Positions 4,933 through 33,400 of a DNA stretch of 64,000 nucleotides are shown one piece after another (positions within the stretch are counted from its first letter, which is position 1; each line of letters opens with the position of its first letter). Origin of the DNA: Onthophagus taurus (taxonomy: Eukaryota > Arthropoda > Insecta > Coleoptera > Scarabaeidae). The position numbers were made by a program, and so were the translations under genes. The DNA lies in contig NC_091973.1 of the NCBI RefSeq assembly GCF_036711975.1, positions 2,604,001-2,668,000 on the forward strand, written 5' to 3'. The notes under the pieces were generated by a model. The model saw only the letters and a program-made list of their open reading frames with translations. It was not told where the DNA came from and ran no database searches.

Positions 4933-5175
4933 TGCTGTCAAATTCAAAATGCGTCTCTGGCGCCATAACGGCGACAAATCCAACTAAATTATATTGTTGC
5001 AACAACGATTTTTCTAATTATTTCAATTTGAGATTAAATTAATAATAAAAACATTACACTAAAGTATATTGGGGCAAATTTATTTCCAAAAATAGAGTTA
5101 AAAAGTACCCCAACAAAAATGAGGTTATGTGTCCAAAAATTAACAAAACAAAAAAAAACGTTAAAATTCGCTTAC

Positions 5176-7849: not shown

Positions 7850-9515
7850 GGAACGGCCGAGATTACTTCATATATCATGAATAATACGTGGGGAGACAAT
7901 TTCATGCCTGTATTTGCTTTGTAGACGTCGGCCGCCCCCAAGTACTGTTCGTGATATAAGAAACAATCTCGGCCGACTTCGAAGATGTCGGCCGCCCCAA
8001 GTATTATGACTTGCATCATAAACTTGTTAATAGTATCACTCAGGATTCAGAGTGTAAAACCAAGTCATAGAATAACTAGAAATGACACTTCTCTCGAAAG
8101 AAGCGAGTACTGCTACAAACAATACTTGGGACGGCCGACGTCTTCGAAGTCGGCCGAGGTTACTTCCTATATCCTCGGCCGCCCCAAATATCTTGTGATA
8201 TAGGAAGTAACTTCGAAGACGTCACCGTACTGGAGGCGGCCGACGTCTTCGAAGTCGGCCGAGATTGTTTCTTATATCGTGAACAATACTTGGGGCGGCC
8301 GACATCTTCGAAGTCGGCCGAGATAATTTAATTCCTATATTTGTTTTGTAGACGTCGGCCGACCCAACTATTGCTTGTGATATAGGAAGTAACCTCGGCC
8401 GACTTCGAAGACGTCGGCCGCCCCAAGTACGGCGACGCCTTCGAAGTCGACCGAGGTTACTTCCCATATTATGAACAATACTTGGGGCGGCCGACGTCTT
8501 CGAAGTCGGCCGAGATAATTTAATTCCTATATTTGTTTTGTAGACGTCGGCCGACCCAACTATTGCTTGTGATATAGGAAGTAACCTCGGCCGACTTCGA
8601 AGACGTCGGCCGCCCCAAGTATTACTTGTGATATAGGAAGTAACCTCGGCCGACTTCGAAGACGTCGGCCGCCCCAGGTATTACTTGTGATATAGGAAGT
8701 AACCTCGGCCGACTTCGAAGACGTCGGCCGCCCCAAGTACGGCGACGCCTTCGAAGTCGACCGAGGTTACTTCCCATATTATGAACAATACTTGGGGCGG
8801 CCGACGTCTTCGAAGTCGGCCGAGATAATTTAATTCCTATATTTGTTTTGTAGACGTCGGCCGACCCAACTATTGCTTGTGATATAGGAAGTAACCTCGG
8901 CCGACTTCGAAGACGTCGGCCGCCCCAAGTATTACTTGTGATATAGGAAGTAACCTCGGCCGACTTCGAAGACGTCGGCCGCCCCAAGTATTACTTGTGA
9001 TATAGGAAGTAACCTCGGCCGACTTCGAAGACGTCGGCCGCCCCAAGTACGGCGACGCCTTCGAAGTCGACCGAGGTTACTTCCCATATTATGAACAATA
9101 CTTGGGGCGGCCGACGTCTTCGAAGTCGGCCGAGATAATTTAATTCCTATATTTGTAGACGTCGGCCGACCCAAGTATTGCTTGTGATATAGGAAGTAAC
9201 CTCGGCCGACTTCCAAGACGTCGGCCGCCCCAAGTATTACGTGTGATATAGGAAGTAACTTCGAAGACGTCACCGTACTTGAGGCGGCCGACGTCTTCGA
9301 AGTCGGCCGAGATTGTTTCTTATATCATGAACAATACTTGGGGCGGCCGACATCTTCGAAGTCGGCCGAGATAATTTAATTTCTATATTTGTTTTGTAGA
9401 CGTCGGCCGCCCCAAATATCTTGTGATATAGGAAGTAACCTCGAAGACGTCGCCATACTTGGGGCGGCCGACGTCTTCGAAGACGTCGGCCGCCCCAAGT
9501 ATCATGACTTGCATC
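7850..9515. repeat. Palindromic-module satellite array 1
   Basis: About two dozen copies of a 25-bp quasi-palindrome with arms CGGCCGAC and GTCGGCCG around TTCGAAGAC, in both orientations, separated by AT-rich linkers. A composite unit recurs with spacings of about 300 and 312 bp (marker near 8438, 8738 and 9050). Some members are truncated or carry GACG..CTTCGAAGTCGAC variants. It lies between porcupine copy C and TIM50. Apparent proteins rich in LGRLRRRRPP or GAADVFEVGR are simply translations of this module. Confidence 0.9.
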
Positions 9516-9580
9516 ATAAACTTGTTAATAGTATCACTCAGGATTCAAAGTGTAAAACCAAGTCATAGAATAACTAAAAA
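8020..9580 (+). repeat. Direct repeat of about 70 bp at both sides of satellite array 1
   Basis: Unique-looking DNA from about 8020-8090 recurs almost unchanged at about 9513-9580 (both contain CTTGTTAATAGTATCACTCA). The two copies are about 1.49 kb apart and bracket most of the array. This indicates duplication of a flank together with satellite. Confidence 0.8.
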
Positions 9581-9584
9581 TGTG

Positions 9585-10274
9585 ATACATCTTCTAAAGG
9601 ATGTGACCCAGTGTTCTTTCTGGTTATTCTATGACTCTAGTATGCGATGCAGAATGCTTCAATTCAACGGACACAACAGATAACATTTCAAAAGTTACAT
9701 TATCTTTAAAATTTGAGAAGTGATACCTGCTAATAAAAAAAAACGTCAAAAAAATTTTATCTAGAAAAATCATAAATTTATTTACATTGGAAGTACATAA
9801 GGAATAATATCCCGGACAATGACACAGTACGCATGCTTGGATTACTTGGATTGATAAAGTTTAATTTAACAAAAATGATGATAACTTCTTACCGTATAAA
9901 TTGGAATGTCTCGAATGCGCAGAAAAGCACGTTAAACACTTTAATAATATATTTAACGCTTAATCCGTTGAAAATGGGGTAATAAAACTTAACCTCAACA
10001 ATCCAATACACCAGTATGTTAATTTATTAACACTAGATGGCGCAATTGTACTTGCAAGAATGCAACATTTTTTTGTAAAACAAAAGTAATCAAATTTAAG
10101 TAATTTTAATTAAAACCAAAATAAATACAATTAAATTAATTAAACATTAGTCATCAAATAAAACACAAATTTAAAAAATTATTTTTGTTAAGATTCTTCG
10201 TCTTTTGTTTTGTTATATTTGGTACCTGTGAATCATTTTGATTATTTGACAGTTGCCGGTTTCGTTATGATAAA
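9585..10274. promoter_or_regulatory. TIM50 upstream region with a CTCF-like motif
   Basis: No gene is seen. The sequence ACTAGATGGCGC at 10032-10043 fits the core CTCF consensus (A-S-Y-A-G-R-K-G-G-C-R-S) and lies about 230 bp before the TIM50 start. The remainder is AT-rich. Whether the motif is bound is unknown. Confidence 0.4.
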
Positions 10275-11513
10275 ATGTTTAGAATATCGTTTAATACGGT
10301 AAATTTACTAAATGCGAGTTTAAAATGGTGTAATTTACCCCAAAAAGGGCGAAGAACATTAATACAGTTCGTCCCAAGGTTCACGCAGACAGCCTTTTAT
10401 TCTAAAGGTAACACATTTCTTATAGGTTATGTCCACCTTATAACTTAATTTTAATTATTAGACGCACGCGATGTGAAATCTCCACTTGCAACGTTAATCC
10501 AACAACAAAACCAGGAACAGAAGCAAGAAATTCCACAACCTGATGATACCAAAACGGAGAAACAAAAAAATAAAGAGAAATCATGGCGACACATGAAATA
10601 CACTTTTATATTTTTTGCTGTTTCATTAACATGTGGTGGCTTTTATTTAATCACAGAATTAGGTAGTCCTAAATATGATGATAATGGTGAACTTATTGTC
10701 GATCAGTTCACTGAGTTGCCTGTTGTGAAACAATATATTTTAAGAACACTAAGCGAGTTAGATTATTACAGCCAAGTTAGCAATTTCATTATTGAAATAT
10801 TTATTTTATTTTTAACTTTATTTTTTTTATAGCTCATTAAAGAACCATCCCGCGAGAAATTACTTCCAGACTTAATAAATCATCCGATGTATCACCCGAA
10901 ATACACTTTAGTTTTAGAATTTACTGATGTTATTGTTCATCCTGATTGGACTTATAAAACAGGATGGAGATTTAAAAAACGTCCTGGATTAGACAATTTC
11001 TTGGAAAGTCTACATGGAACTTACGAAGTTGTCATTTACACCGCCGAGCAAGGAATAACCGTTTATCCAATAATCGACGCATTAGATCAAAGAAGCTTAA
11101 TAAACTACAAACTCGTTCGGGATGCAACACTTTTTGTTGATGGAAAACACGTTAAAGATCTGGATAAACTCAATCGAGATCTCTCAAAAGTAATCGTCGT
11201 CGATTGGAACGGCGATTGCACCAAATACCATCGAGACAATGTCCTAAAAGTTCCTCGATGGAATGGAAACGACGATGATACCGATTTATTAACGTTATCG
11301 TCATTTTTATTGGCTATTTCCCACAGTCAAATTGACGACGTTCGGGATGTTCTCAAAGTTTATCATCAATTTGATGACCCTTTGCTGGTTTATAAAGAAC
11401 GCCAAAAAAGACTTATTGAACAAGCAGAAGCTGAAGCTGAACAAGAAAGAGATAAAACCTCAGCTCAATCGCCTATTAGTCGTTGGCGACCAACGTTTTT
11501 CAAAAAATTTTAA
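10275..11513 (+). CDS. TIM50: Mitochondrial import inner membrane translocase subunit TIM50
   Basis: TIM50 is the receptor subunit of the TIM23 complex. It hands presequence proteins from the outer membrane to the inner-membrane channel. Exons: 10275-10407, 10462-10775 and 10833-11513, totalling 1,128 nt or 375 aa plus stop. The N-terminus is rich in basic and hydroxylated residues and lacks early acids, like a matrix-targeting presequence. A single membrane segment lies at about residues 91-110. The C-terminal FCP1/NIF-like domain faces the intermembrane space and includes GWRFKKRPG, IYTAEQG, RDATLFVDGKHVKDL and RWNGNDDDTDLL. In the FCP1 catalytic D-x-D-x-T position this protein reads E178-F-T180-D-V, so phosphatase activity is not expected, as in other animal TIM50 proteins. 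The C-terminus is a charged coiled tail. It is flanked on both sides by satellite arrays. Family call is secure. Confidence 0.95.
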
Positions 11514-11599
11514 ATTTAATTATGTATTCTCTTTTTTAATTAAACATAATTGTTAAAAAAATTATTTATTTTATTGTTAATGTATACACTGGCCACCAA

Positions 11600-12975
11600 A
11601 AAGTCAGTAATACTCCAAGTATTAGTCATGACACTTGGAGCAGCCGACATTATTATTCTTAACCTGCTTGAAATTTATGGAAAAAGTAATCTCGGCCGAC
11701 TTCGAAGACGTCGGCCGCCCCAAGTAACATGGACAATACCATAAGTCTACCCTGGTTAAAATTTATGGAAATAATCTCGGCCGACTTCAAAGACGTCGGC
11801 CGCACCAAGTATTGGCCATGATATTGGGGGGCGGCCGACGTCTTCGAAGTCGGCCGAGGTTATTTTTTCCATAAATTTCAAGCATGATACTCTTATTGTA
11901 TTGTTTATCATATTGGGGGCGGCCGACGTCTTCGAAGTCGGCCGAGGTTATTTTTTCCATAAATTTCAAACAGCATAGACTTATTGTATGGTTCATGATA
12001 CTTGGAGCGGCTGACGTCTTCGAAGTCGGCCGACATTATTACTCTTAACCTGCTTGAAATTTATGGAAAAAGTAATCTCGGCCGACTTCGAAGACGTCGG
12101 CCGCCCCAAGTAGCATGGACAATACAATAAGTCTACCCTGGTTAAAATTTATGGAAATAATCTCGGCCGACTTCAAAGACGTCGGCCGCACCAAGTATTA
12201 GCCATGATATTGGGGGGCGGCCGACGTCTTCGAAGTCGGCCGAGGTTATTTTTTCCATAAATTTCAAGCAGGGTACTCTTCTTGTATTGTTTATCATACT
12301 GGGGGCGGCCGACGTCTTCGAAGTCGGCCGAGGTTATTTTTTCCATAAATTTCAAACAGCATAGACTTATTGTATGGTTCATGATACTTGGAGCGGCTGA
12401 CGTCTTCGAAGTCGGCCGACATTATTACTCTTAACCTGCTGGAAATTTATGGAAAAAGTAATCTCGGCCGACTTCGAAGACGTCGGCCGCCCCAAGTAGC
12501 ATGGACAATACAATAAGTCTACCCTGGTTAAAATTTATGGAAATAATCTCGGCCGACTTCAAAGACGTCGGCCGCACCAAGTATTAGCCATGATATTGGG
12601 GGGCGGCCGACGTCTTCGAAGTCGGCCGAGGTTATTTTTTCCATAAATTTCAAGTAGGGTACTCTTATTGTATTGTTTATCATACTGGGGGCGGCCGACG
12701 TCTTCGAAGTCGGCCGAGGTTATTTTTTCCATAAATTTCAAACAGCATAGACTTATTGTATGGTTCATGATACTTGGAGCGGCTGACGTCTTCGAAGTCG
12801 GCCGACATTATTACTCTTAACCTGCTTGAAATTTATGGAAAAGTAATCTCGGCCGACTTCGAAGACGTCGGCCGCCCAAGTAGCATAGATAATACAATAA
12901 GTCTACCCTCTACACCATGTATTGGTTATCACACTGGGGGCGGCCGACGTCTTCGAAATCGAATAAGACTTATTG
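11600..12975. repeat. Palindromic-module satellite array 2 with 386-bp higher-order repeat
   Basis: About 17 copies of the 25-bp module in alternating orientation. Linkers contain ATAAATTTCAAGCAG-like DNA or its complement. A complete higher-order unit repeats every 386 bp: the same minus-strand frame recurs at 11787, 12173 and 12559. A fourth unit decays after 12890. The array starts within 90 bp of the TIM50 stop codon and may include its 3' end. The segment 12976-13405 has no gene, only AT-rich DNA and one TGACGTCA palindrome near 13047. Confidence 0.9.
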
Positions 12976-13405
12976 TATTTTTCATGCTACTTAGTTCAGC
13001 ATTTCAGAATTTGCTAATTCAAAGTGTGAAATAATTACCTATGCGTGACGTCACGAACTTACATACAGTAATCTTAGATTCTTCCTTTATACAAAAATTG
13101 GTTGATTTTGATAAGGATTGTTGACATCTAGAGTTTTCTTATTAGTTCTAATTATTAATAAAAAAAGTAAATTATTGCATAAATATAAAAACTTTATTTT
13201 TAAGTACAAACTCAACATTTGATGAGATTATTAGATGAACACAAAAAAAAACATCATTCTAAGTCAGTCTTAAATCTGATAATCTCAAAATAAATAGTAT
13301 AACGCACATAACACGTCGTCTTAATAGACATTTTTTTAATAATAATACAGTTTTTATCAAAAAGTTATCTTTTATCACAAGTTATCACAATAATACGCAT
13401 GCATT

Positions 13406-16400
13406 TTAATGATCGAAGTCTTTAAAAACGTCGATCACGGATACTCGAGATGACAACTTGATCATGTCGTTAAAATGAACGTGAGGAATCTGGACGTTAC
13501 CTTCGAGTTGTTCGTCACTTTTTACCAAAACGAAAACCTTTCTTGGGTCGTTTTTAAAACGTTTCAATGCGTCTAAAAGTTTTTTAATCGAGGTTTGGGG
13601 CAAATTCGAAATTTGCAAACATAGAAATATTAATTGTGGGTTCTTCTCTAAGAAATTTTCAAACGGTTTGGCACTAATTACTTCTACGCTGCGACATTTA
13701 ATGTAAAGTCGTTTTAAACGGACTTCTAGACTGTTTGCCAGCGCAGTAAATAAGCGATCTATTGATATGTTACACGGATGTTCATATCTAAGAGAAATAA
13801 TATTTTTGTCACGTTAATATGATAAGTCATGATATTTACCTTAAGTCTTGTAATGTTTTTGCATAAGGCAAAGCATTGCATAACATAAAATGCAATTTCG
13901 TGTTATGCGTTTTTGATCTGATTCTTAATGAAACTAAACTTTTACATTCTTGTAAAATCTTAAAAATGAAATGATTGTAAATAATATTGTTATTATTTAA
14001 ATAAATTTTAATACCTTTGTTAAAAATACTCCGGATATTAAATGAGGGATTTCATCGATAGTTAATTTCTCTAATTTTTTAAAATTGGCTATATTTTCAA
14101 TCGCTGTATTATTAATATACACCGTATTAACGGTTCTAGCACAACCCCAAAGTTCTAACTCTGTTAAGTGCGGGGTGTTAGTGGCTAATCTTGATAATAA
14201 GCACTCGGCTGGTATTCCATTTCCAATTCGAGGGCGTTTTGTGGGTTGCGGAATATTAAATTCAGCATCATCTAATAATAAAAACAATTAAAACAATTTT
14301 TCTATAAATGTAAAAGAAACTTACGTAATGCTGCGCACATATTTAACGCAGTTTTTTGCAATTCTCGGCTATTTTCATACAAAAGGATATTGCGTATATG
14401 TTCGTGGTAATTATCAGTACACGTCGGGCTATGATGTATAAAATTCAACTCATCAAACATCATCGTACCTAATTTCGAATGATCGTAAAATAATTCCTAA
14501 AAATTAAACTAAATTTATCGTAATTCTTATTTAAAAAAAAAACAAGCATACGTTAAACTGTTTACGCGAGAAAGGAGAGGAACAGCGCCTCAAACGAAGT
14601 AAATGTAACCAATTCACGTCTTCGTATTGTCGATCCCACAGCATTGACATAGTAACATCAAGCCTTTTATAAACGGCAAATTGGTCTCGAACGTGTGATA
14701 CAAACATTTTAGTCAAATTGTTAGCTAGAATTGTATCGCGAACGCACGCAAAATTTATCGCCAACGTAGTTATATCCTGTACGTTGCGCGGAAGCGATAT
14801 CATTTTCCAATCATGAATTGTTGGCAAACCAATTTCAATTATCTAAAATTAAGATTAACTTTGTGTTAATTAAAACTTAACCATGCCTTTATTGCAAATA
14901 GATGAGTAATACACAATGCGTTTCTAAATTATCACACTAAGATAATATATAAATAATAACCATAAATTAATAATAACAATTTGGATAAAGAAAATCCAAA
15001 TTTGTACATTTGGATTTTCGAGTGGCCAGAAACTCTAAATAATCTTGAACAAGATGAAGTGTCAACTTCTCACCCACTCTGGGCACGACAATCCACCAGA
15101 TGGGTAAGCTTAATTAAGAGATCAGGAACAGAGTAGACAAAGCTTACTATGTCCTGAGTCTAAATAATCTCGGCCGACTTCGAAGACGTCGGCCGCCGTA
15201 AGTATTGTTCGTGATACTTGATTAAAAAAAGAGTGAACAAGGCTACCAAGGTTTACTATGCCCTGAGTCAAGAGACCAGGACAAGGGTTTATAAAGCGGT
15301 CATTTAACCTATACTTACCTATGGCAGTGAAAGCTGGACCGCAAATACAAAGGACATCAGTAGGGTTAATGCGGTCCAAATGAAATGCCTATGGAGCGCT
15401 GCAAAAAAGACACAGCCGTTTTGGAGAAGAGCTCAATATACAGCCGGTCGAGAGGATGATTGAGGATAGATGAGAGCTGTCCTGGTTTGGCCACGTAAAA
15501 CGAGGTGAGGAAACCACGGATGATCCACAAGCGAGGAAAGACTATGCAGCAGCGCAAGGGTCTTGCTGGGGAGAGGAAAAACTTCAGAAGAATAATTTTG
15601 CTTTATTAAGTCGAGGTCGCTTGTGGCTAGTGATGTAAAAAAAGTAACAATTCGTTATACGAGTACTCGTTACTCCGCGAGATCCAAAGTAACTGTTACC
15701 GTATCACATCGGTACCAGTTACTTTGGATCTAACAGTTACTTTTTCCAAAGGCCAAGTATTGTTGGATAGGTGAAATCGACTTAAAAGTCGAAATGCGCA
15801 ACAAAATTTATTTTTACATTGCAATAATAAGCTGTAATATCTTTTATTGTTGTTTTAATATTTTTATTTTATTTTATTATTGCTTGTTTTATAGAAGAAG
15901 TTTTGTTTTCCATTGTTAATGTGTTACTACTTTCAAATATTTTTGTTATATAATAAGTGAAACGTAAGTTATTAATAATTAAATAATAATAATTAAGAAA
16001 AATTCTTCGTTATAATATGCAGTGAAAAAGTAAATCCCATAACCTACACTCTATTTTTTGATATTAGTGCACAGTGCATAATAGCGTAACAAACACAATA
16101 TAATATACGTACAGTATTTGTTTTCAAAAATAAGTGTAATATAAAATAAATTCATATAAGTATGTAGTCCAACTAAAACGAGTAATCGAACCTCGAGCGC
16201 AAACTAGTACTGGAACCTCAAGCGCAAACGATTACTTGTAACGAGTAACGAGTACAAAGTAACGAATACTTTTTCTGAAAGTAACGGATAGTTACAAATA
16301 CTAAAAAGTAACTAAACTTTACATCACTACTTGTGGCCGAGGTACTATAATATATGATGCCACATATTGCATTTATGTGATATCATAAGTATCAAATACC

Positions 16401-18644
16401 AGAATGCAAAAATAACCTCGGCCGCCCCCAGTATCATGACCAATACTTGGTGCGGCCGAGATTATTTCCATAAATTTTAACCAGGGTAGACTTATTGTAT
16501 TGTCCACGCTACTTGAAGCGGCCGACGTCTTCGAAGTCGGCCGAGATTACTTTTTTCATAAATTTCAAGCAGGTTAAGAGTAATAATGTCGGCCGACTTC
16601 GAAGATGTCAGCCGCTCCAAGTATCATGAACCATACAATAAGTCTATGCTGTGAAATTTATGGAAAAAATAACCTCGGCCGACTTCGAAGACGTCGGCCG
16701 CCCCCAGTATCATAAACAATGCAATAAGAGTATCCTGCTTGAAATTTATGGAAAAAATAACCAGCTATTATTCGTGATACTTGGGTTGGGTTGCATATAG
16801 GCGAAAATCATGCTCTGTCACGGACAATACTAGAAATAATCTCGGCCGTATTACGCTCCCAGTATTACGCTCCCAATACTTAGTGCGGCCGACGTCTTTG
16901 AAGTAGGCCGAGATTATTTCCATAAATTTTAACCAGGGTAGACATATTGTATTCTCCATGCTACTTGGGGCGGCCGACGTCTTCGAAGTCGGCCGAGATT
17001 ACTTTTTCCATAAATTTCAAGCAGGTTAAGAGTAATAATGTCGGCCGACTTCGAAGACGTCGGCCGCTCCAAGTATCATGAACAATACAACAAGTCTATC
17101 TTGCTTGAAATTAATGGAAAAAGTAACCTCTGCCGACTTCGAAGACGTCGGCTGCCCCCAGTATCATGAACAATACAATAAGAGTATCCTGCTTGAAATT
17201 TATGGAAAAAATAACCAGCTATTATTCGTGATACTTGGGTTGGGTTGCATATAGGCGAAAATCATGCTCTATCACGAACAATACTAGAAATAATCTCGCT
17301 CCCAGTATTACGCTCCCAATACTTAGTGCGGCAGACGTCTTTGAAGTAGGCCGAGATTATTTCCATAAATTTTAACCAGGGTAGACTTATTGTATTCTCC
17401 ATGCTACTTGGGGCGGCCGACGTCTTCGAAGTCGGCCGAGATTACTTTTCCATAAATTTCAAGCAGGTTAAGAGTAATAATGTCCACTCCAAGTATCATA
17501 AACAATACAATAAGAGAATCCCGCTTGAAATTTATGGAAAAAGTAACCTCGGCCGACTTCGAAGACGTCGGCCGCCCCCAATATCATGAACAATACAATA
17601 AGAGTACCCTGCTTGAAGTTTATGGAAGAAATATCTTATGGAAACAATACTTAGCAGGGTAGATGTATTATATTCATACAGGTCATGACACTTGTGGCGG
17701 CCGACGTCTGCGAAGTTTATGTCTCTTAACATGCTTGAAGTTTATGTATATCTCGGCCGACTTCAAAGACGTCGGCCGCCCCAAGTATCGTGTACAATAC
17801 TTAGCAGGGTAGATTTATTATATTGTTTATAATACTTGGGGCGGCCGACATCTTCGAAGTCGGCCGAGATTATTTCTTATAAATAGCAAATAATAGAATA
17901 TTAAGTTTGGAGCATTAACATTTTGTCATCTATGTACAGAATGATATGTTTAAAAGTTCCCTAATTGAAATAAACAAGATAAAATTATCGTACCCATAAT
18001 TCGGCAAGTGGATTAAATTTTCCTAGGGTATGTAATATTAAATGTAGCAATCCTACGGCAAAACTTTCAATATGAAAGTAAAAATGAGTTAGTTTTGGAA
18101 GATGCTGAATAACTTCTTTACAAAACGTTCTTCTGAGAATGGTTACGCCTAAACGTTCCAACTAAAAAATGAAATTTATGTAAAAGGGGGTAAAAAATAC
18201 ATAAGTACTGAAGTATTACGCTAGGTAAAGCTCTGTACACTGTCACATCAGATTTTCTGAGACCTAGTTTAGTATCAATCACATACAATTCTTTCAAATG
18301 AAGCAGTTTCATAATATTCTTCCGTAAATCGTATGCAGATATCCAGTAAATCGATGTGAGATTCAACGACGTTATGTGAAGACACGTAGGATTTTTAACT
18401 AAAAAATTTTCTAAGTGGACCTTATTAAAATGGTAGCAATTTGTTACGTTTACATGACTAAAAGTAAAATAAATAATTTGTAAATAATTGGACAGAGATA
18501 AACATAACCTCACCTTATCACGCAACGAGAAGTTGAGACATATACAAATCTAGGGTGGACTTGTCGTAGATTTAAAACATCCGGAGTGTCGAGATATGAG
18601 CATATTATCTCTAAAATTTCAGTAGGCAGTTGAGTTATATCCAT
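13406..18644 (-). CDS. F-box and leucine-rich-repeat protein
   Basis: Likely the substrate-recognition subunit of an SCF ubiquitin ligase. Exons: 18514-18644, 18220-18457, 17994-18161, 14552-14842, 14325-14496, 14015-14271, 13840-13958 and 13406-13787. The sum is 1,758 nt, or 585 aa plus stop. The F-box is at the N-terminus, about residues 5-40 (LPTEILEIICSYLDTPDVLN), and is the site expected to bind SKP1. The remainder has degenerate leucine-rich repeats, for example LKELYVIDTKL, TELELWGCA, LEKLTIDEIPHL and LKRLYIKC. The third intron (14843-17993) is about 3.15 kb, against tens of bases for the others, and is filled with repeats and transposon debris. The donor at 18219 (GTAATA) was chosen because it alone keeps the frame. 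A short divergent motif, TAGATGTCGC, lies 77 bp upstream of the start. I cannot assign a specific orthologue; F-box class is confident. Confidence 0.8.
15111..15590 (+). pseudogene. Relic of a LINE reverse transcriptase C-terminus
   Basis: A broken reading frame includes RVYKAVI, then a stop, then PILTYGSESWT and further MKCLW. This resembles the post-thumb region of non-LTR reverse transcriptases (pattern: YKT..RP...YG.E.WT). Several stops follow. A single palindromic module (about 15160-15215) interrupts it, and flanking sequence ending in CCTGAGTC is present on both sides. It sits in the large intron of the F-box gene. Confidence 0.6.
15628..16329. mobile_element. Non-autonomous hAT element with intact 8-bp target duplication
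   Basis: The 702-bp element starts TAGTGATGTAAA and ends TTTACATCACTA, forming terminal inverted repeats. Immediate flanks are identical 8-mers, CTTGTGGC at 15620-15627 and 16330-16337, which is the hAT target-duplication length. Interior repeats of AGTAAC and GTTACT type are subterminal, and no transposase frame is present. Removing the element restores a GCCGAGG-type motif like the monomers at 52.8-53.7 kb, so it inserted into a member of that other repeat family. Confidence 0.88.
16410..17885. repeat. Palindromic-module satellite array 3, inside the F-box gene intron
   Basis: About 13 modules, several mutated (for example GTCTTTGAAGTAGG), with linkers carrying ATAAATTTCAAGCAGG and TTGGGTTGGGTTGCATATAG. 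A roughly 450-bp block is repeated (compare 16735-17020 with 17180-17440). The array would be transcribed within the F-box pre-mRNA. Confidence 0.88.
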
Positions 18645-19163
18645 CTTTGAGTGTTTAATTTAAAAAATATCAGGCCCAATTCATAGAGAAATCTTACCGC
18701 TACAGATGTTCATAAAACACTAGCGACATCTACATCATTTTCAAACTTCAAACTAATATGAGTTTTATAGGCATAAACAAAACTTTATTTTTATTTACAA
18801 GTATAAATAATCTCAAATTCCTTCACGATTAATATTTTATCATTTCTTGCTAATATAGATTAAATTACAACAAAAAGTATTATTTTGCAAAATTTTTGCG
18901 ATTTCTTCTTCCGGAACCAACACAGCAAAATGTATTGGCGCGAAAATTCAAATTTATATTATAATTAATTTATCTGGAATCATTTCTCTTTCTCATTTTA
19001 GGTATTATGAAAGGGAAACTACTTCTTTTAAGAAATTACAGCAATAAATTATAGAAATACATGGTGTATAATAATATGGTGAACTTGTTTTATGATAAAA
19101 TTGCTGAAAATTTTAAAAGCTTCAAACAAAACTCATTAATAAGAGTCCTATCATCATCATCAT
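18645..19163. other. Upstream region of the F-box gene, no gene seen
   Basis: AT-rich DNA. The only motif noted is TAGATGTCGCTA (minus strand, 18721-18732), close to the F-box gene start. A TCATCATCATC tract at about 19152 leads into the LINE tail. Confidence 0.4.
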
Positions 19164-19316: not shown

Positions 19317-19319
19317 CCA

Positions 19320-20725
19320 AGTATTGTTCGTGATGTAAGAAATAATCTCGGCCGACTTCGAAGACGTCGGCCGCCCCAAGTATCATGAACAATACTTAGG
19401 GCGGCCGACGTCTTCGAAGTCGGCCGAGATTATATCTTCCATAAATTTCAAACAGGGTAGACTAATTGTATTGTTCATGATATTTGGGGCGGCCGACGTC
19501 TTCGAAGTCGGCCGAGGTTGTTTTTCTTAACCTACTTGAAATTTATGGATGAAATAATCTCGGCCGACTTCGAAGACGTCGGCCGCCCCAAGTATCATGA
19601 ACAATACTTAGGGCGGCCGACGTCTTCGAAGTCGGCCGAGATTATATCTTGCATAAATATCAAACAGAGTAGACGTATTGTATTGTTCATGATATTTGGG
19701 GCGGCCGACGTCTTCGAAGTCGGTCGAGGTTGTTTTTCTTAACCTACTTGAAATTTATGGATGAAATAATCTCGGCCGACTTCGAAGACGTCGGCCGCCC
19801 CAAGTATTCCTCGTGATATAAGAAATAGTCTCGGCCGACTTCGAAGACGTCGGCCGCCCCAAGTATCATGAACAATACTTAGGGCGGCCGACGTCTTCGA
19901 AGTCGGCCGAGATTATATCTTCCATAAATTTCATACAGGGTAGACTTATTGTATTGTTCATGATATTTGGGGCGGCCGACGTCTTCGAAGTCGGCCGAGG
20001 TTGTTTTTCTTAATCTGCGTGAAATTTTTGGAAGAAATAATCTCGGCCGACTTCGAAGACGTCGGCCGCCCCAAGTATTCCTCGTGATATAAGAAATAGT
20101 CTCGGCCGACTTCGAAGACGTCGGCCGAATTAAGTATTGTTCGTCATGCTTGGGGCGGCCGACGTCTTCGAAGTCGGCCGAGACTATTTCTTATATTACG
20201 AAGAATACTTGGGGCGGCCGACGTCTTCGAAATCGGCCGAGATTATATCTTCCATAAATTTCAAACAGAGTAGACGTATTGTATTGTTCATGATATTTGG
20301 GGCGGCCGACGTCTTCGAAGTCGGCCGAGGTTGTTTTTCTTAACCTACTTGAAATTTATGGATGAAATAATCTCGGCCGACTTCGAAGACGTCGGCCGCC
20401 TCAAGTATCATGAACAATACTTAGGGCGGCCGAGATTATATCTTCCATAAATTTCAAACAGGGTAGACTTAATGTATTGTTCATGATATTTGGGGCGGCC
20501 GACGTCTTCGAAGTCGGCCGAGGTTGTTTTTCTTAATCTGCGTGAAATTTTTGGAAGAAATAATCTCGGCCGACTTTGAAGACGTCGGCCGCCCCAAGTA
20601 TTCTTCGTGATATAAGAAATAGTCTCGGCCGACTTCGAAGACGTCGGCCGTCCCAAGCATGACGAACAATACTTAATTCGGCCGTCTTCGAAGTCGGCCG
20701 AGATTATTTCTTCCACAAATTTCAA
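19320..20725. repeat. Palindromic-module satellite array 4
   Basis: About 20 modules, mostly exact, in head-to-head and tail-to-tail pairs. The tight pair type has two modules facing each other across CCCCAAGTAT, about 8 bases, ATACTTGGGG (one base changed in places). Wider linkers carry ATAAATTTCAAACAG and TTGTATTGTTCATGAT. It lies between the LINE tail and the 3' end of NOMO. The stretch 20726-20944 is NOMO 3' flank. Confidence 0.9.
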
Positions 20726-20944
20726 GCAAGGTAGACTTGGTTTCACGAATTTAGAAAATTTTCATATTTTTCTTTTTATTCAGTACGGACTAACCAGAAG
20801 AAACACCGTTAAAGCAACAACCTAAAACTTTGTGAAAATCTAAAAGGTTATCACACACATACAAAAAATAACACTCTATATCACTAAACAATTTTATTAA
20901 CTTATCCTATTACTCTTTAATACAACAAAAAAAATGCTAATAAA

Positions 20945-23900: not shown

Positions 23901-26596
23901 ATTCTACGTAACATAAATAATTATCTTCAATTTTTATATTATCAGGTGGTGTTTGCACGCAATCTTCTATTTTTAAATTCATGTTTTTCTCTGAATACAA
24001 AATTAAAGTAGCCCCTTTAATATTTTCCCCATAACTTTTTACGTAACCACTAACATCATAACCAGCTATAATTAACGATTTTGCTGGTAATTCCGTGTTT
24101 CCCTCTGCTACAGTTACAACAACCGTATCTCTTATAATTTTCCATCTAAAAAAATGAAGACGTGCAGTTTAATTAAATCATTTCGATTTATTTTACGTAC
24201 TTCGTGTGTGAAATCACCACAGTATGTAAACCAGGATAAACAGGTGTAAAGAAAAATAATCCATTTTCAGATGTAACAGTTGTACGTACTTCTGAATCTG
24301 TTTTAAGTTTTACTTCAATGCCTAAAGGACCGTTAGAACTACCCAAACTCTCCACCTATTTCAAAAATAATTTTAAATTAATTAATTAATATTATTAATT
24401 ATCAGGTAATGAGTAATAAGGTGTTACATTTTTGCTTTAACCCTCGAAAAACGACTTATGGCGAAAATATAATCTATTATCAAGGCTGATGTATACCGTG
24501 ATTATGGCACGTGGCAGATTCAAAGAAGATAGAAAAAAAGTGGATAAATTAGCACCTATACGGGAAGTATCGGATATGTTTGCAGAAAATTGTAGGGGGT
24601 TTTACGAGGCATCAAATACTGGTGCAGTAGATGTACAACTAATATCTAAAAGAATGGAAAATCATGAAACTTTAAGGCAATTTTTCTCGAAAATTTTCTT
24701 ATGTATTAATTTTTGCTGTACCAAATCCAGAAAAAAATTCTCTTTCATATTCCGTAATAAAAATGGGGATTGCTATTTGAAAAAAATAGCAATGACGTCA
24801 TAACTAGTTTAAAAATGGCGGAAAAAATTTATAATCTAGACCAAGACCTCTTCAGTTTACATTTTGCGCCTAAAATATTGTTCATGACACATGGGGCGGC
24901 CGACGTCTTCGAAGTCGGCCGAGATTATTTCTAATATTATTCCTAATAGAGCATGATCTTCGCCTATATGCAACCCAACCCAACCCAAGTATCAAGAATA
25001 ATACCCGAATATATCTGTTCTGTGATAATACTTGGGGCGGCCGACGTCTTCGAAGTCGGCCGAGATTATTTCTGTTGATATAAGAAATAATACCACCCCA
25101 GGTATTATTCGTGATACTTGGGTTGGGTAGCATATAGGCGAAGATCATGCTCTATCACAAAGAATACTAGAAATAATCTCGGCCGACTTCGAAGACGTCG
25201 GCCGCCCTATGTATTATTCGTGATACTTGGGTTGGGTTGCATATAGGCGAAGATCATGCTCTATCACGAAGAATACTAGAAATAATCTCGGCCGACTTCG
25301 AAGACGTCGGCCGCCCCAAGTGTCATGAAACAATACTTTGGGCGGCCGACGTCTTCGAAGTCGGCCGCCCTATGTATTATTCGTGATACTTGGGTTGGGT
25401 TGCATATAGGCGAAGATCATGCTGTATCACGAAGAATACTAGAAATAATCTCGGCCGACTTCGAAGACGTCGGCCGCCCCAAGTGTCATGAACAATTCTT
25501 TGGGCGGCCGACGTCTTCGAAGTCGGCCGAGATTATTATTGCTCTATCATGAATAATACTTGAAATAATCTCGGCCGACTTCGAAGACGTCGGCCGCCCC
25601 AAGTGTCATTAGGGCGCCTGATTGTTCATGATACTTGGAGTGAGATTATTTTTTATATCACAAATAGTACTTGTTCAATACCAAGACCTCTCCAGTTTAC
25701 ATTTTTGTCTACATTACAACAATTAAGATTTTGATTACTATTCACCACTCCTCTTATTATTATAATTTTTGAAAACGTCGCCCAAGATCTTTGGAGATAA
25801 TCATGACTTGGTCTTACAGATCAAAGTATTATGGTTAATGTATTTGGGGGCGGCAGACGTCTTCAAAGTCAGCAGTGGTCAGTAGAGAACATGGTTTGTA
25901 ACCAAAATTATATGGGCACAAATGAAAATGAAATGGCAGATTAGTTAATATCAACATTTTCTTGCAGTTTAGAATTCTGAAAGTGTAATTCCAAACATTT
26001 TCTTAATGTTTACAGTTTGGCCTCAATATCATATATACCAGGACTTTGGTAGATATTGGACATATTGGATATTATCATAATTATACACTCATTTCAAATA
26101 CATATTTATTACCTTTCCTGTAATACCAAATCCCTTAAATTTAAAATTAATATCATGCCCCTGACTACAAATATCATTCTTTCCATCTATGTTAACATTA
26201 ATTCTTATTGGATCAAAACTCCAACCTGGTGGGGGTTCAAGCTAAAAAAAGATATTTAAAGTAGCTTAAATAAAAAAAGATAACCTCAAACATTACCTGT
26301 AAGATATATTCGCCCTTATCATATAAAGGAATAAAATAATACCCATTATTTGGAGCGCAATTAGTCTGATCTTTAACTATACCCTGTTTCGTCAACCTGC
26401 AAATTAATAAATTAAAAAAAAAAAAATGCTAAGTAACGATATTAATGGAAACTTACAATTTAACGACGACTTTGGAAAAATCAATGGGGACGTGGCTTTT
26501 GATGAAGCCCCCGCAGCCCAAAACATCGTTCGCAGTAACGCATATAATATAGCTTAATAATAATGAACATAAAATGACTAGCTTTTCATTAAACAT
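20945..26596 (-). CDS. NOMO: NOMO (nodal modulator), ER translocon-associated BOS complex subunit
   Basis: NOMO is a type I ER membrane protein. With Nicalin and TMEM147 it forms part of the multipass translocon that inserts membrane proteins. Exons: 26457-26596, 26297-26396, 26113-26241, 24201-24355, 23749-24145, 23259-23689, 22110-23199, 21863-22056 and 20945-21809. The sum is 3,501 nt, or 1,166 aa plus stop (human about 1,222). A signal peptide occupies about residues 1-22. It is followed by GCGGFIKSHV, PNNGYYFIPLYDKGEY and EPPPGWSFDP, and then serial immunoglobulin-like/carboxypeptidase-regulatory-like modules with recurrent GFSIFGRV-type starts. A membrane segment lies at about 1091-1109 and the tail ends KPKKI, a K-x-K-x-x ER-retrieval form. 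The 1.76-kb intron 24356-26112 holds a piggyBac relic and satellite. The ATG at 26594-26596 is chosen because it immediately precedes the signal peptide. Architecture matches the family throughout. Confidence 0.93.
24489..24690 (+). pseudogene. piggyBac-family transposase relic in a NOMO intron
   Basis: The frame contains KVDKLAPIREVSDMFAENC followed by AVDVQLIS. This matches the piggyBac (DDE_Tnp_1_7) pattern around the first catalytic aspartate (DKLAPIR..F..F..NC......VDE.L). Neither end of an element nor the rest of the transposase is evident. It lies antisense to NOMO. Confidence 0.65.
24880..25900. repeat. Palindromic-module satellite array 5, inside a NOMO intron
   Basis: About 8 good modules between 24895 and 25605 plus a decayed one near 25855. 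Linkers contain the second recurrent motif, TTGGGTTGGGTTGCATATAG followed by GCGAAGATCATGCTCTATCA, four times. No gene is seen up to the exon ending at 26113. Confidence 0.88.
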
Positions 26597-27018
26597 TATA
26601 AAAAATTCGGCGATGTAGCATTTGTTAACCTCACAATTGCACAATTAACCTCTTTTTTTGTACGTTGCCCATAAATGTCAAAATGGAATTTCGTTCAATC
26701 ACACATAGATGACGCTTAAGCCTGTTTAAGTAAGGTAGAAACTACAAATGAAACCAAAACATGCCTATAGATGTCGCCTTTTACTATTAGGTATCTACTT
26801 TATCGATAAATGTCAAGACGTGGCCAGTGCGTGGCTGTCATCGCATGCATACGTAACCTCTCACTTCGAGTAAACTTTCCAACTTTGACTTTCGTAGTCG
26901 TATGGAAGCAGTCATCATTTGCGCTTCGCAAAAAAAATTAAAGAAAGGTAAAATTATAACAGAAACTAGCCATAAAAGAACCAAATCTAATTCAAAATCT
27001 TATTCTTTTTGTATCTAG
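26597..27018. promoter_or_regulatory. Divergent promoter between NOMO and SSR2 with a DRE motif
   Basis: Only 422 bp separate the two start codons. A perfect DRE octamer TATCGATA (DREF site, typical of insect housekeeping promoters) is at 26801-26808. TAGATG-N-CGC motifs occur at 26706-26715 and 26767-26776. SSR2 appears to have a noncoding first exon ending at 26947 and an intron 26948-27018 whose acceptor AG abuts its ATG. No TATA box is obvious. Confidence 0.65.
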
Positions 27019-27655
27019 ATGTTTCAGAAAGTATTGTTTTTCCTCCTCCTCGCCGTTTTAACGGTAAACTGCAACACGGACGAGGAATCCAGTCCCAGAC
27101 TGTTGGTGTTTAAGCAAATTTTGAATAAATATCTCGTTGAAAATATGGACATCGTTGTTAAATATACTTTATTTAATGTTGGGAGCGCCGCTGCTATTGA
27201 TGTTAGGTTAGTTGAAACCGGATTTCACCCTGAAGCTTTTCAATTAGTTGGAGGGCAATATGAAGCTGCTATCGATAGGATTGCTCCACAGACCAATGTG
27301 ACACATGTTGTTGTTGTTAGACCCATTCAATATGGATATTTTAACTTTACTAGTGCTAAAGTTAATTATAAAATGTCTGATGAAGCTAAAACAGTGAGTT
27401 TTATTATAAAATTATTTAAATTATTAAAAATTAATGTTTTTTTTTATTTTTTAGTATCAAGTATCCTTTAGCAGTGAGCCTGGAGAAGGTGCCATAAGTG
27501 CTTTCCGTGACTACGATAGGAAATTCTCTTCACACGTATTTGATTGGCTGGCTTTTGCTGTAATGACAATGCCATCTTTAGCAATTCCCTTCTTCCTTTG
27601 GTACAGCAGCAAGAGCAAATACGAAAAATTAGCAAAACCTGTCAAAAAGCATTAG
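27019..27655 (+). CDS. SSR2: Translocon-associated protein subunit beta (TRAP-beta, SSR2)
   Basis: TRAP-beta is a single-pass subunit of the TRAP complex that sits beside Sec61 and assists translocation of secretory proteins into the ER. Coding exons are 27019-27393 and 27455-27655, 576 nt or 191 aa plus stop (family about 183-190). A signal peptide covers about residues 1-18. The luminal beta-sandwich domain includes [14 protein letters not shown] and an N-glycosylation site in QTNVTHVV. The C-terminus has [17 protein letters not shown] leading into a membrane helix and a short lysine-rich cytosolic tail ending KPVKKH. It is divergent from NOMO, another ER-translocon component. Identification is secure. 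Confidence 0.95.
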
Positions 27656-27842
27656 ATTTATTTTGTTAATTGTAGTTATTAATTTTTTTATTTATCGTAC
27701 AAAACATTCTTCAACATTCATCTTCAACACAGAATGTCATTAACTTTGTTATTACAAATGAAATAAAAACAACATTTCTTTTTCTAATTTTGACGTTTTA
27801 TTTAAATCAAAATAAATATAAAAGTACTAAAACTGAAAAATC

Positions 27843-29963
27843 GAACTGGTAACAATTTATTATAAACGTGTGGCAACACTGTAATAGATCCCAATCTCGC
27901 CCCAAATATTGTTCGTGATATAAGAAACAATCTAGGTCTTTGGATACGAAATCCTACCCTAAAGCCTGTTCTTCGCCTTACTAGAAATAATCTCGGCCGA
28001 CTTCGAAGACGTCGGCCGCCCCAAGTGTCATGAATAATACTTAGGGCGACCGTATTGATCATGCTATTTGGGGCGGCCGACGTCTTCGAAGTCGGCTGTG
28101 ATTATATCTCTTAATCTACTTGAAATGTATGGAAAAAATAATCTATATGCAACCCAACCCAAATATCACGAACAATACCTGGGGCGGCCGACGTTTTCGA
28201 AGTCGGCCGAGATTATTTTTGTTAATATAAGAGATAATCTCGGCCGACTTCGAAGACGCCCCAAGTGTCATGAATAATACTTAGGGCAGCCGACGTCTTC
28301 GAAGTCGGCCGAGATTATATCTCTTAATCTGCTTGAAATGTATGGAAAAAATGATCTCCTATATGCAACCCAACCCAAGTATCATGAACAATACCTGGGG
28401 CGGCCGACGTCTTTGAAGTCGGCCGAGATTATTTTTGTTAATATAAGAAATCATCTCGGCCGATTTCGAAGACGTCGACCGCCCCAGGTATTATTCGTGA
28501 TACTTAGGTTGGGTTGGATTGCATATAGGCGAAGATGCTCTATCATGAACAATACTAGAAATAATCTCGGCCGACTTCGAAAACGTCGGCCGCCCCAAGT
28601 GTCATGAATAATACTTAGGGCGACCGTATTGATCATGCTATTTGGGGCGGCCGACGTCTTCGAAGTCGGCTGTGATTATATCTCTTAATCTGCTTGAAAT
28701 GTATGGAAAAAATGATCTCCTATATGCAACCCAACTCAAGTATCACGAACAATACCTGGGGCGGCCGAGATTATCTCTTATACTAACAAAAATAATCTCG
28801 GCCGACTTCGAAGACGTTGGCCGCCCCAGGTATTATTCGTGATACTTAGGTTGGGTTGGATTGCATATAGGCGAAGATGCTCTATCATGAACAATACTAG
28901 AAATAATCTCGGCCGACTTCGAAGACGTCGGCCGCCCCAAGTGTCATGAATAATACTTAGGGCGGCCGTATTGGTCATGCTACTTGGGGCGGCCGACGTC
29001 TTCGAAGTCGGCCGAGATTATATCTCTTAATCTGCTTGAAATGTATGGAAAAAATGATCTCCTATATGCAACCCAACTCAAGTATCACGAACAATACCTG
29101 GGGCGGCCGAGATTATCTCTTATACTAACAAAAATAATCTCGGCCGACTTCGAAGACGTCGGCCGCCCCAGGTATTATTCGTGATACTTAGGTTGGGTTG
29201 GATTGCATATAGGCGAAGATGACGCTCTATCATGAAAACTACTAGAAATAATCTCGGCCGACTTCGAAGACGTCGGCCGCCCCAAGTGTCATGAATAATA
29301 CTTAGGGCGGCCGTATTGGTCATGCTACTTGGGGCGGCCGACGTCTTCGAAGTCGGCCGAGATTATATCTCTTAATCTGCTTGAAATGTATGGAAAAAAT
29401 GATCTCCTATATACAACCCAACCCAAGTATCACGAACAATACCTGGGGCGGCCGAGATTATCTCTTATACTAACAAAAATAATCTCGGCCGACTTCGAAG
29501 ACGTCGTCCGCCCCAGGTATTATTCGTGATACTTAGGTTGAGCTGGATTGCATATAGGCGAAGATAATGCTCTATAATGAACAATACTAGAAATAATCTC
29601 GGCCGACTTCGAAGACGTCGGCCGCCCCAAGTGTCATGAACAATACTTGGGGCGGCCGACGTCTTCGAAGTCGGCCGAGATTATTCCTCTTAATCTGCTT
29701 GAAATTAATGGAAAAAAATAATCTCGGCCTAAGTATTGTTGGTGATACTTGGGGCAGCCAAGATTATTTTTTATATCACGAACAATACTTGTAGCGGCCG
29801 ATGTCTACGATGCAAATAAAGAAATTAATTGATTTTCGGAATATACTACAAAAAAAACTTTTAGAAGAAAAGTTGTAGAGAATTTAAAAATACTAACTAA
29901 AAGTTCATTAATCGATTGAAATATGAACTGGTAACAATTTATTATAAACGTGTGGCAACACTG
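27843..29963 (+). repeat. 39-bp direct repeat flanking satellite array 6
   Basis: An identical 39-bp sequence beginning GAACTGGTAACAATTTATTA occurs at 27843-27881 and at 29925-29963, on either side of the satellite. Similarity extends weakly beyond. One copy is next to the SSR2 3' end, the other just upstream of staufen. Confidence 0.88.
27890..29815. repeat. Palindromic-module satellite array 6 with 342-345-bp repeat
   Basis: About 18 modules. A composite unit containing two to three modules, the GGTTGGGTTGGATTGCATAT linker and CTTAATCTGCTTGAAATGTA repeats with periods of 342 and 345 bp (same frame at 28642, 28984 and 29329). The array sits between SSR2 and staufen. Confidence 0.9.
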
Positions 29964-29989
29964 CAACAGGCCGCAACCGATTTAAACAT

Positions 29990-30431
29990 GGCCGCATGTT
30001 AGACAAAATTTTTCTTTCTTGTTTGCCAACGTATTTAAAACGATTTAGTAGTGGTGTTTGTTAGTTTATTGGATGTTCTATTTATTTCTGTAGTGCCCCG
30101 TATTGTAAATTAATAGTAAAAAATTGGTAAGTGTACCGCGAGGGGGCGCAAAATAACCGATAATTCGTCGAACCGGCAACATTCCTAATACTGACAGTGT
30201 TCTCTTTAAATATAAACACCTTAACCGACACGAAAAAACCAACGTTTATATAAAGGTTTATGTTTTAATTCAATATGAATGTCATCTATTTTTGTCAATA
30301 ACGGTGTTTTGTAAAAAATGAATTGTAGAAATTCATTTAGAACGAAAAAGTGCGTGTCAATAAATTTAAGTTGTCTTTAAATGATAACGTAATTTCGCGG
30401 TATGCTTACTTACGAGGTTTTTGTTCTTTAG
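29990..30431 (+). promoter_or_regulatory. Staufen 5' region with CTCF-like motif
   Basis: No coding exon. CCGCGAGGGGGCGC at 30137-30150 fits the long CTCF consensus (CCGCG-N-GG-N-GGC). A plausible noncoding first exon ends near 30128 at a GGTAAGTG donor and would join the acceptor at 30431. Both are inferences from motif alone. Confidence 0.4.
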
Positions 30432-30437
30432 TAGAAA

Positions 30438-33400
30438 ATGATGAGGCATCCAGAACATCATCAACTACCGCCTACAATGCAAAGAAATAATAGGTACACA
30501 ACTGTTACTGTTTATTTTAGTGGACAAGCATTACATTACATGTTTATCAATTTTAGAATGAACGTCCAACAAATGACGCAGCCTGCACAGAGAATGCTGA
30601 TGACTGTACCTGGATCTCCTCATTCCAGTATGCAAATATTCCAAATATATTTTGAATTATTAATATTTTTAACTTCGTAGGTGTGCTCGTGTCCATGCCT
30701 GGACCTGGACCAACGTTAATTACAACTACCATTGCTCCGATACCACAACATCCCCAACAACCATCCAAAACAAATTCCGTTCCAGGTAATCTTCATTTAA
30801 TTTCTATTATTTATTTATGATGGTAAGCAATTTAATATGACTTTATATTTAGATAAACTAATATTAAGATGCAAATAATTCCAAACATTATTTACTGATG
30901 CTTTACACTATACAAATATATATTCACAATCTCTAGAATTTATTTATTATTTGAGCTTTTTCATTTAGCTTTTTCCCGAGCGAATCTCGAGCGTTTTAGA
31001 AAGACAAATTGATTCATTTTGGTCGTTTTAAATATCTCTTATATTAACAAAAATAATCTCGGCCGATTCGAAGACGTCGGCCGCCCCAGGTATTATTCGT
31101 GATACTTAGGTTGGGTTGGATTGCATATAGGCGAAGATGATGCTCTATCATGAACACTACTAGAAATAATCTCGGCCGACTTCGAAGATGTCGGCCGCCC
31201 CAAGTGTCATGAATAATACTTAGGGCGACCGTATTGATCATGCTATTTGGGGCGGCCAACGTCTTCGAAGTCGGCCGAGATTATATCTCTTAATCTGCTT
31301 AAAATGTATGGAAAAAATAATCTTCTATATGCAACCCAACCCAAGTATCACGAACAATACCTGGGGCGGCCGACGTCTTCGAAGTCGGCCGAGATTATTT
31401 CTTCCATACATTTCAAGCAAGTTAAGAGAAATAATCTCGGCCGACTATCATTATATGGGTATCTTTTAAATAATATCCTATATATCTTGGTTTTCTGGAA
31501 TTGAAACTAATTGGGTGACCATCAATCTACCATATATTTTTAGTAGTTAAGATAGGATTCAGAAAAAAAGCATTTTTACCTTGATTAACTTATTCATTCA
31601 CGCTATAATTGGACTTTCAAAAGAAAAGTGACTCTACCTAACATTCTTTTTTGGGATAATTGACATTTGTAAACAAATCTAACCTTAGCCAAAACATTTT
31701 CTGGACAATGTTAAAAAGAAAAAACCGAGGAGCCGAAAATTTTCAAATTTACATGTTACATAGTTCTAAATTAACTCGCATTTCTTCGAAGTAATTTTTG
31801 ATAAGTTCCTTGGAAACATAAATGGAATACTTTTTCTGTTTTATCGGTAATTCGTGTTTAGATTGTTAAGAAAGCGTTGTTGTTTTAGTATATTACGATC
31901 AACGTACGACTCATTCTCATAACATGAGTTCCGATGATCAGCAACAATCGCAGCAGCAGCAATCGCCGCAACAATCTCAACAGACGCAACACACTCAGCA
32001 TGCACACCAGACGCAGCACCGCCAATCGGAGAACCCCGTAGACCCACAGCAGCAACAGAACCCGCCATCAAACACTACTACTTCTTCAGCGTTGCCCATT
32101 TTGGCAAACATAAAAGAGAAAACCCCCATGTGCTTAGTGAACGAGCTCGCTCGGTACAACAAGATCCAGCATCAGTATCGGCTGACGGGCGAGCAGGGGC
32201 CCGCACACAAGAAGATATTCACGGTAACGCTGAAACTCGACAACGAGGAGTACGAAGCGGAAGGACCCAGTATCAAGAAAGCACAACATTCGGCCGCCGC
32301 CCAAGCTCTCGCCAAAACGCAGCTGAAGCATCCGCCACCCAAAACGGCTCGGAACAACCGTCAGGGCGTACGAGTGACCTCTACTGGAATGGTAACGCCA
32401 ACCGTCGAATTAAATGCTCTCGCGATGAAACGGGGCGAACGGACCGTTTACGTTGTTGAAAATGGTCCGGGACATCATCAACAGACTTACGTACCTCAAC
32501 CAACGGGATACTATCCGAGACACGGATTATACAGTCCGCAAGGACAACCCAGGTACAATTGCGATATGAGGCGTAACCATCCCATGAGAGGACATTATAA
32601 TTCCTACGACAACAGGTATTACAATCAAATACGGCCACCGTTTCAACAACACGGGAACGCCGAAATTTGTTCTGTTCTTTTACGAATCGCTGATAGGGAA
32701 TATTCCGGGACCGGTTTGACAGTACAAGCTGCGCGGCACGACGCTGCGTCGAAAGCGATCGAAGATATCAAAAGATTAAACGCGGAAGAGGGTCGAGATA
32801 GTGAAGGTGAAGGTAGCACTATTGAGCAAACGATTGAAAACGGCGAAACAGACGTAAACGCGGATTTAAAGTCACCGATATCGCTAGTTCACGAAATTGC
32901 GTTAAAACGGCATCTCAGCGTCGCTTTTGAGGTGCTGAGCGAAAAGGGCCCGCCACACATGAAGGTCTTTATAACGCAATGTAAAATCGGTGACATCGTC
33001 GTTGAAGGTGAAGGTAACGGAAAGAAAAAATCGAAAAAGCGCGCCGCGGAAAAAATGCTTGAAAAATTAGCCAAATTTCCACCTTTACCTTCAACATCCA
33101 CTTCGAATAGTTTAAAAAAGAAACGGGTGACAAATAAGAAAAAGACCCGAAATTTGATAAAACTTAATTCGGATAAATCATCCGAATACGCCGAAGAAAT
33201 TAATCCGATTTCCCGTCTAATTCAAATACAACAAGCGAACAAAGAAAAAGAACCCGTTTACACGGTGATCGAAGAACGTGGCGCTCCTCGTCGTCGAGAA
33301 TTTGTCATTCAAGCTTCCGTGAATGGCATTTCTTGTAATGGAATTGGACCCAATAAAAAAATCGCCAAGCGAAGTGCTGCTCAAGCTCTACTCAATGCAC

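Follow-up and report, generated by a model that had tools for sequence, protein, structure and literature searches.

A 64,000-nucleotide stretch of the Onthophagus taurus genome (contig NC_091973.1, positions 2,604,001 to 2,668,000; "the window", to which all positions below refer) carries a dense cluster of copies of a short CpG-rich palindrome. The family is probably a gene-associated minisatellite, that is a short satellite DNA, which has spread locally by tandem duplication and break repair as a 59-bp module comprising a flank L, a conserved 25-bp quasi-palindromic box (the core) and a flank R. Sequence comparisons of repeat copies were all made within this one window.

The core, CGGCCGACTTCGAAGACGTCGGCCG, occurs exactly 63 times (32 on the plus strand, 31 on the minus strand), and a search allowing up to four mismatches returned 96 matches, with 25 at one mismatch, four at two, three at three and one at four. 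These correspond to 95 sites, as the matches at 9465 and 9468 are a single perfect 28-bp palindrome read twice, close to the roughly one hundred copies of the original prediction. Its description of the core (arms, centre, six CpG, two CGGCCG, TTCGAA and GACGTC) was accurate in every part, as was the near-exactness claimed over about 24 kb, with 63 of the 96 matches exact and all of them within 7970–31391. This span comprises the seven arrays that had been proposed, one decayed copy and also a solo copy at 15171, which lies outside the arrays. No match with up to six mismatches was found elsewhere in the window, and a permissive profile search added a single weak match outside the cluster (35354–35380, E = 0.042). 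A chance origin of the copies is excluded, since none of 20 simulated 64-kb sequences (first-order Markov) matched the core with fewer than eight mismatches, their best matches having 8–10; CGGCCG itself occurs 213 times in the window, which has a G+C content of 36.7%, compared with a mean of 5.15 in the simulated sequences. The loci are listed below with two examples of their organisation, and the core counts, 92 in total, refer to copies with up to two mismatches.

Array A, 7854–9510: 17 cores, higher-order units of 310 and 192 bp, and 59-bp monomers.
Array B, 11605–12965: 16 cores, with a 386-bp higher-order unit repeated 3.3 times.
Solo module C, 15160–15222, plus strand: one exact core, at 15171, with L and R flanks.
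Array D, 16410–17911: 11 cores, with half-core modules, which hold one CGGCCG each, at 16419 and 16453.
Array E, 19318–20738: 19 cores, units of 212 and 271 bp, and R–R inverted pairs 53 bp apart.
Array F, 24866–25674: eight cores, all exact, with R on both sides of the core at 25343.
Decayed single copy, 25851–25875, minus strand: carries four mismatches and lies past the right-hand copy of the array F duplication, outside that array as its bounds were set.
Array G, 27898–29812: 17 cores, with a unit of about 342 bp.
Array H, 31049–31446: three cores, and two incomplete ones, of which one has a deletion and the other is truncated.
Example of a 59-bp monomer, 8588–8646, plus strand: core and 34-bp linker, head to tail.
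Example of an R–R inverted pair, 19338–19440, plus strand: two cores 53 bp apart, folding at −54.5 kcal/mol as single-stranded DNA.

The core forms the centre of a longer module, whose orientation is tied to its flanks. The repeat is an oriented module consisting of L (AATAATCT-like), core and R (CCCCAAGTAT-like), with a basic monomer of 59 bp, and modules occur both in tandem and inverted, reassembled as higher-order units that are duplicated within arrays. Among complete 25-bp cores bounded by CGGCCG (n = 78), 71 have a fixed L/R order, one is flanked by R twice and no core is reversed, the remaining six having one flank left unclassed by our simple flank rule. Head-to-tail spacing of 59 bp is the simplest arrangement (10 cases among the 92 cores), alongside R–R inverted pairs spaced 53–54 bp (10 cases) and L–L pairs spaced 71 bp (nine cases). 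Seven higher-order periods (192, 310, 386, 212, 109, 163 and ~342 bp) show 94–98% matches, which supports the recent amplification originally suggested, and further periods in the same arrays show 71–92%; units of 109–386 bp are repeated 2.0 to 3.6 times each. Between different arrays, linkers differ by 13–34% in aligned blocks (21 array pairs), a range which is the sole use made of the between-array alignment (core 132/3532 and linker 1855/7854 differing) as its linker alignment is uncertain. Linkers do vary between copies, as had been noted, but they are drawn from a limited set of shared types and are not random filler. Tandem head-to-tail monomers with higher-order units, as in a euchromatic minisatellite or short satellite array, are therefore present, and copies within one array are the most alike, the pattern of concerted evolution.

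Over the longer history of the family, change has been slower in the core than in its flanks. When 96 profile matches of at least 45 bits were placed on a tree by their flanks alone, the core showed 1.04 changes per site, compared with 2.7 at the ten L sites and 3.7 at the first ten R sites, or 3.2 over these 20 flank sites together (p = 9e-6), a roughly threefold difference. The 26 inferred core changes all fall at G/C sites with none at the seven A/T sites, while 13 A/T sites in the flanks carry 37. The profile was trained on cores with up to two mismatches and only matches of at least 45 bits were kept, which biases it towards intact cores, hence cores were also counted from their flanks. 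This flank-only search (L and R, gaps of 0–40 bp) yielded 150 pairs. The cluster holds 138 of these, and 84 are separated by 25 bp. Within the gap-25 pairs, 55 cores were exact, 24 had one change, four had two and one had three, so that the core differs at 1.7% of sites, a rate which covers the gap-25 pairs alone (the other gaps include nine pairs at gap 6, mostly half-cores), compared with 10% and 9% in the flanks, even though these were capped at two mismatches each. Long gapped self-alignments, in which the core was less diverged than the linkers in eight of nine identity bins, wander between arrays and were not used for rates.

Several features point to local spread. The eight loci all lie within 23.6 of the 64 kb (p = 0.005 if placed independently, tested after the cluster had been seen), and sharing of linker 12-mers drops with distance (Spearman −0.48, exact one-sided Mantel p = 0.015; seven arrays, solo C omitted), the largest shares, as fractions of the smaller set, being 0.66 for G and H and 0.38 for B and D; the blocks of array D that best match array B run in inverted orientation. 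Three loci are also flanked by direct duplications. Array F lies between copies of a 31-bp sequence (24835–24865 and 25675–25705, 28/31 identical), array G between 27795–27894 and 29872–29976 (76% over 106 columns, with 47 of the last 52 bp identical by manual count from the alignment), and solo C between 53-column duplicates at 72% identity. Direct duplications thus abut three of eight loci and none of 300 random segments, 14 of which had a direct repeat at E ≤ 1e-4 in their 600-bp flanks without any abutting both edges; the segments were drawn outside the cluster with two other satellites left out, array edges came from the profile search and the abutting rule was fixed after the cases had been seen. 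Array F probably expanded after its insertion, because two of its unit periods show 98% matches. For the same reason we dropped the argument that its exact cores, beside duplicates that are 10% diverged, prove selection.

The box may also lie at rearrangement junctions: there are two R/R cores and some five deletions that leave a half-core, yet 71 of the 78 complete cores keep their L/R order. At 9465, two R-bearing halves join at TTCGAA to give the perfect 28-bp palindrome, both flanks of which are R; the core at 25343, which is complete, is likewise bordered by R to left and right. An exact search found no L/L counterpart. Modules with L and R but a single CGGCCG occur at 8176, 16419, 16453, 20427 and 28762/29104/29449 (three copies of one higher-order unit), and each is what a 19-bp deletion from one CGGCCG to the other would leave. 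A further, weakly classed half-core module stands at the edge of array A (7854).

In the mechanism we propose, new arrays would be seeded nearby when module-bearing DNA, whether an excised circle, a repair copy or a template switch, is captured at double-strand breaks with staggered ends; fill-in of those ends would leave the flanking duplications. As the duplications are long and unequal, we infer such capture rather than the action of a transposase. Arrays would then enlarge by unequal exchange, and the self-complementary ends of the box may let both orientations exchange. The least certain step is the constancy of the box, where exchange may act on the box and keep homogenising it, or a protein may bind it.

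Some observations weigh against this account of local spread with a conserved box. The difference between core and linker is weak in the newest copies, where recent higher-order units differ at 18/849 core and 60/1953 linker sites (p = 0.17; 10 comparisons, omitting the second E pair, the first G pair and H against G). The difference is marginal, at 11/770 and 51/1799 (p = 0.035), without one end-misaligned pair, which was dropped after the result had been seen. All 13 comparisons together give 32/1110 for the core and 96/2543 for the linker, with some of the compared units in array A overlapping, and in the H-against-G pair, whose end is misaligned, the core is the more diverged (9/95 compared with 11/250). 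The original claim of a core better conserved than its linkers is hence supported at the level of the module and weakly so among recent copies. Furthermore, five of eight loci have no flanking duplication, none being found at A, B, D or E, and H being flanked by module sequence only. At solo C, the module looks close to consensus, yet its flanking duplicates are 28% diverged by column, so this duplication may be older than the insertion of the module and is less certainly tied to it. Lastly, the modules could come from a transposon whose autonomous element lies elsewhere, which we consider unlikely.

Such a source would have carried the arrays to each locus as repeats inside a non-autonomous DNA transposon of the foldback or Helitron-like type, with the box as a putative binding site for a transposase or replication initiator. 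Inverted and tandem repeats do occur together here, as in the foldback element Tetris (PMC4079207), HINE elements are described as bearing satellite-like arrays (PMC7492417), a transposase relic adjoins array F, and arrays E and G start with similar R-type sequence by eye. The array ends otherwise differ between loci (by eye, not systematically), however, the copies are clustered, and the constant target duplication of a transposon is not seen, with lengths of 31, 53 and ~52–106 bp at three of eight loci and none at five; overall we give this explanation little credence. It is quite improbable, too, that the box is a functional binding site under host selection, for an insulator, enhancer, centromere-type or chromatin protein. 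Slower change in the core than in its flanks, the seven unchanged A/T sites and the exact solo copy at 15171 would all suit a bound site, but copy number, spacing and orientation all vary, recent copies show little difference between core and linker, and homogenisation accounts for the same pattern. The CENP-B box, whose essential bases are NTTCGNNNNANNCGGGN, was dropped as a candidate: the best match misses two of the nine essential bases and is equalled in 226 of 2000 shuffled modules.

The original prediction also raised selection on the core as a hairpin. Such a hairpin, either a DNA cruciform or an RNA stem serving for instance as a source of small interfering RNA or as an editing target, now appears a very improbable reason for keeping the core. 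The core folds at −9.8 kcal/mol and two R–R pairs at −54.5 and −57.7 kcal/mol, better than shuffles in both cases, and for array F the 809-nt plus strand is far more stable than its 20 shuffles (z = −51), yet inverted repeats alone yield strong folding. None of 26 changed arm pairs across the 96 core matches is compensated, a count that scores G–T as broken, treats copies rather than independent events and enters the palindrome at 9465 twice; both changed arm pairs in a second palindromic family, described below, are likewise broken. The hairpin was therefore abandoned as the reason for the constancy of the core. Nor does the core bear on methylation in the way that had been argued, from a near lack of TpG decay to unmethylated CpG. 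Its CpG positions are not spared, since of its 18 G/C positions the 12 in CpG carry 19 of the 26 changes and the six others carry seven. Values across the whole window are compatible with little CpG decay, to which the core adds nothing: observed/expected CpG is 1.39 outside the cluster, 1.44 inside and 1.07 inside without cores, and TpG is 0.92 outside, none of which amounts to the strong depletion that heavy methylation should bring.

Gene-associated satellite arrays in euchromatin are familiar from the 1.688 repeats of Drosophila, and a study on X-linked satellites in that genus reportedly describes local spread. Our minisatellite is best filed under a kind already known, because conserved boxes, gene-associated arrays and palindromes at junctions are all in print. 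Nematode satellites of the Meloidogyne type, for which PMC3694981 describes a conserved box in otherwise divergent monomers with a proposed role in rearrangement, share with our family the short box, diverged monomers and a mixture of simple and higher-order arrays, and here too the box is less variable than the rest of the monomer. In that account the box lies at rearrangement junctions and recombination or transposition is proposed, but the terms "palindrom" and "inverted" are absent from the main text, whereas our arrays are strongly inverted and lie among genes; its Box 1 resembles the CENP-B box, which our core does not beyond chance. TCAST-like elements of Tribolium, described in PMC3411249 as gene-associated satellite arrays in euchromatin, similarly form short arrays in introns and between genes. 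They are reported there from all chromosomes without significant local homogenisation, whereas our copies, seen in one window, cluster in 24 kb with near arrays more alike. Tetris of Drosophila virilis, a foldback element described as having given rise to a satellite (PMC4079207), is modular and rearranged in a comparable way, although we recognised no terminal inverted repeats or constant ends (ends viewed by eye); satellite-like arrays borne by Helentrons are also in print (PMC7492417). In mollusc satellites, one family is described as breaking within a palindrome (PMC5139131), which likewise ties a palindrome to satellite-array junctions, but those junctions are with other DNA, while here exchange and deletion have left their traces within the conserved box itself.

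Exact searches with the core gave no match in viral_contigs or genome_contigs, collections not meant for animal genomes in which zeros mean little, and four 15–16-letter pieces of it had no occurrence in papers of the PMC library. The window contained no Rfam family at the gathering score and no tRNA.

The repeat loci miss every coding piece identified, making their description as intronic and intergenic a fair one. Gene names rest on Pfam matches where stated and otherwise on translations read by eye, and the gene content points to an animal, probably an insect. Array A lies between an MBOAT (porcupine-like) gene at 6270–6866 (Pfam) and a TIM50-like gene (NIF domain, Pfam), with array B after the latter. 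Solo C and array D lie between open frames at 13406–14842 and an F-box start at 18644 (Pfam), which are perhaps one gene, and array E between that F-box start and NOMO. Array F, between NOMO coding pieces (Pfam) and a likely start exon near 26.6 kb (by eye), is probably in a NOMO intron. Array G lies between a TRAP-beta gene (Pfam) and staufen (Pfam), and array H between short coding-like pieces at 30440–30790 (by eye) and the main staufen open frame, upstream of the latter.

Other mobile or repeated sequences were observed near the arrays. A transposase relic, which we take to be piggyBac-like, adjoins array F in NOMO at 24441–24803 (Pfam DDE_Tnp_1_7, 22.7 bits against a cut-off of 22.4). Around solo C, a piece of a reverse transcriptase gene, presumably of the long interspersed nuclear element (LINE) class, occupies 15240–15450, and the solo module sits between two diverged 53-column LINE-like copies (15109–15160 and 15217–15269). 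A miniature inverted-repeat transposable element (MITE) read by eye at 15631–16331, presumably hAT-like, has ends TAGTGATGTAAA and TTTACATCACTA with an 8-bp direct repeat CTTGTGGC, and is set in satellite-like DNA. Sequence like that of an 85-bp satellite, of which about ten copies with TCGCTTGCGGCCGAGG occur at 52758–53610, flanks the MITE near 15.6–16.4 kb (by eye). Elsewhere in the window, two porcupine-like open frames, similar by eye, lie in tandem on the minus strand (2291–7323), where 6270–6866 alone passes Pfam MBOAT, a grainyhead-like gene piece lies downstream of staufen (38020–38448; GRHL1_C, E = 2e-10), and an open frame at 61091–61462 resembles a mariner-type transposase fragment by eye, with no Pfam match at E 0.01.

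A second, unrelated family occurs at 46.1–47.5 kb, with a 46-bp quasi-palindrome (16-bp arms, CATTCGGGTTTAGCCG) in a 452-bp unit. Its core has 10 copies with up to eight mismatches, five in each orientation, and identity per site falls from 98.7% in the core to 92.5–94% in the next 20 bp and 72–80% in the 20 bp beyond. The copies are set in CTAGAACTAG-rich linkers (45900–47530), and the core and a shifted 24-mer gave no matches in viral_contigs, a collection not meant for animal genomes, so that zeros mean little. Both families have a constant palindromic core, graded decay of the flanks, both orientations and higher-order units. As two unrelated families within 64 kb have a like plan, it is worth keeping, as a tentative and rather doubtful idea, that this genome has a general process by which short CpG-rich quasi-palindromes become arrays that spread locally and keep a near-invariant box; in such a process the palindrome would drive copying and exchange inside the box would keep it constant.

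The cluster looks like satellite DNA caught in the act of spreading over a few kilobases among ordinary genes, in nearly 100 copies. Its flanking duplications are open to dating, and the box can be traced through rearrangement. It would allow a test of whether satellite boxes owe their conservation to selection or to the recombination by which they are copied.

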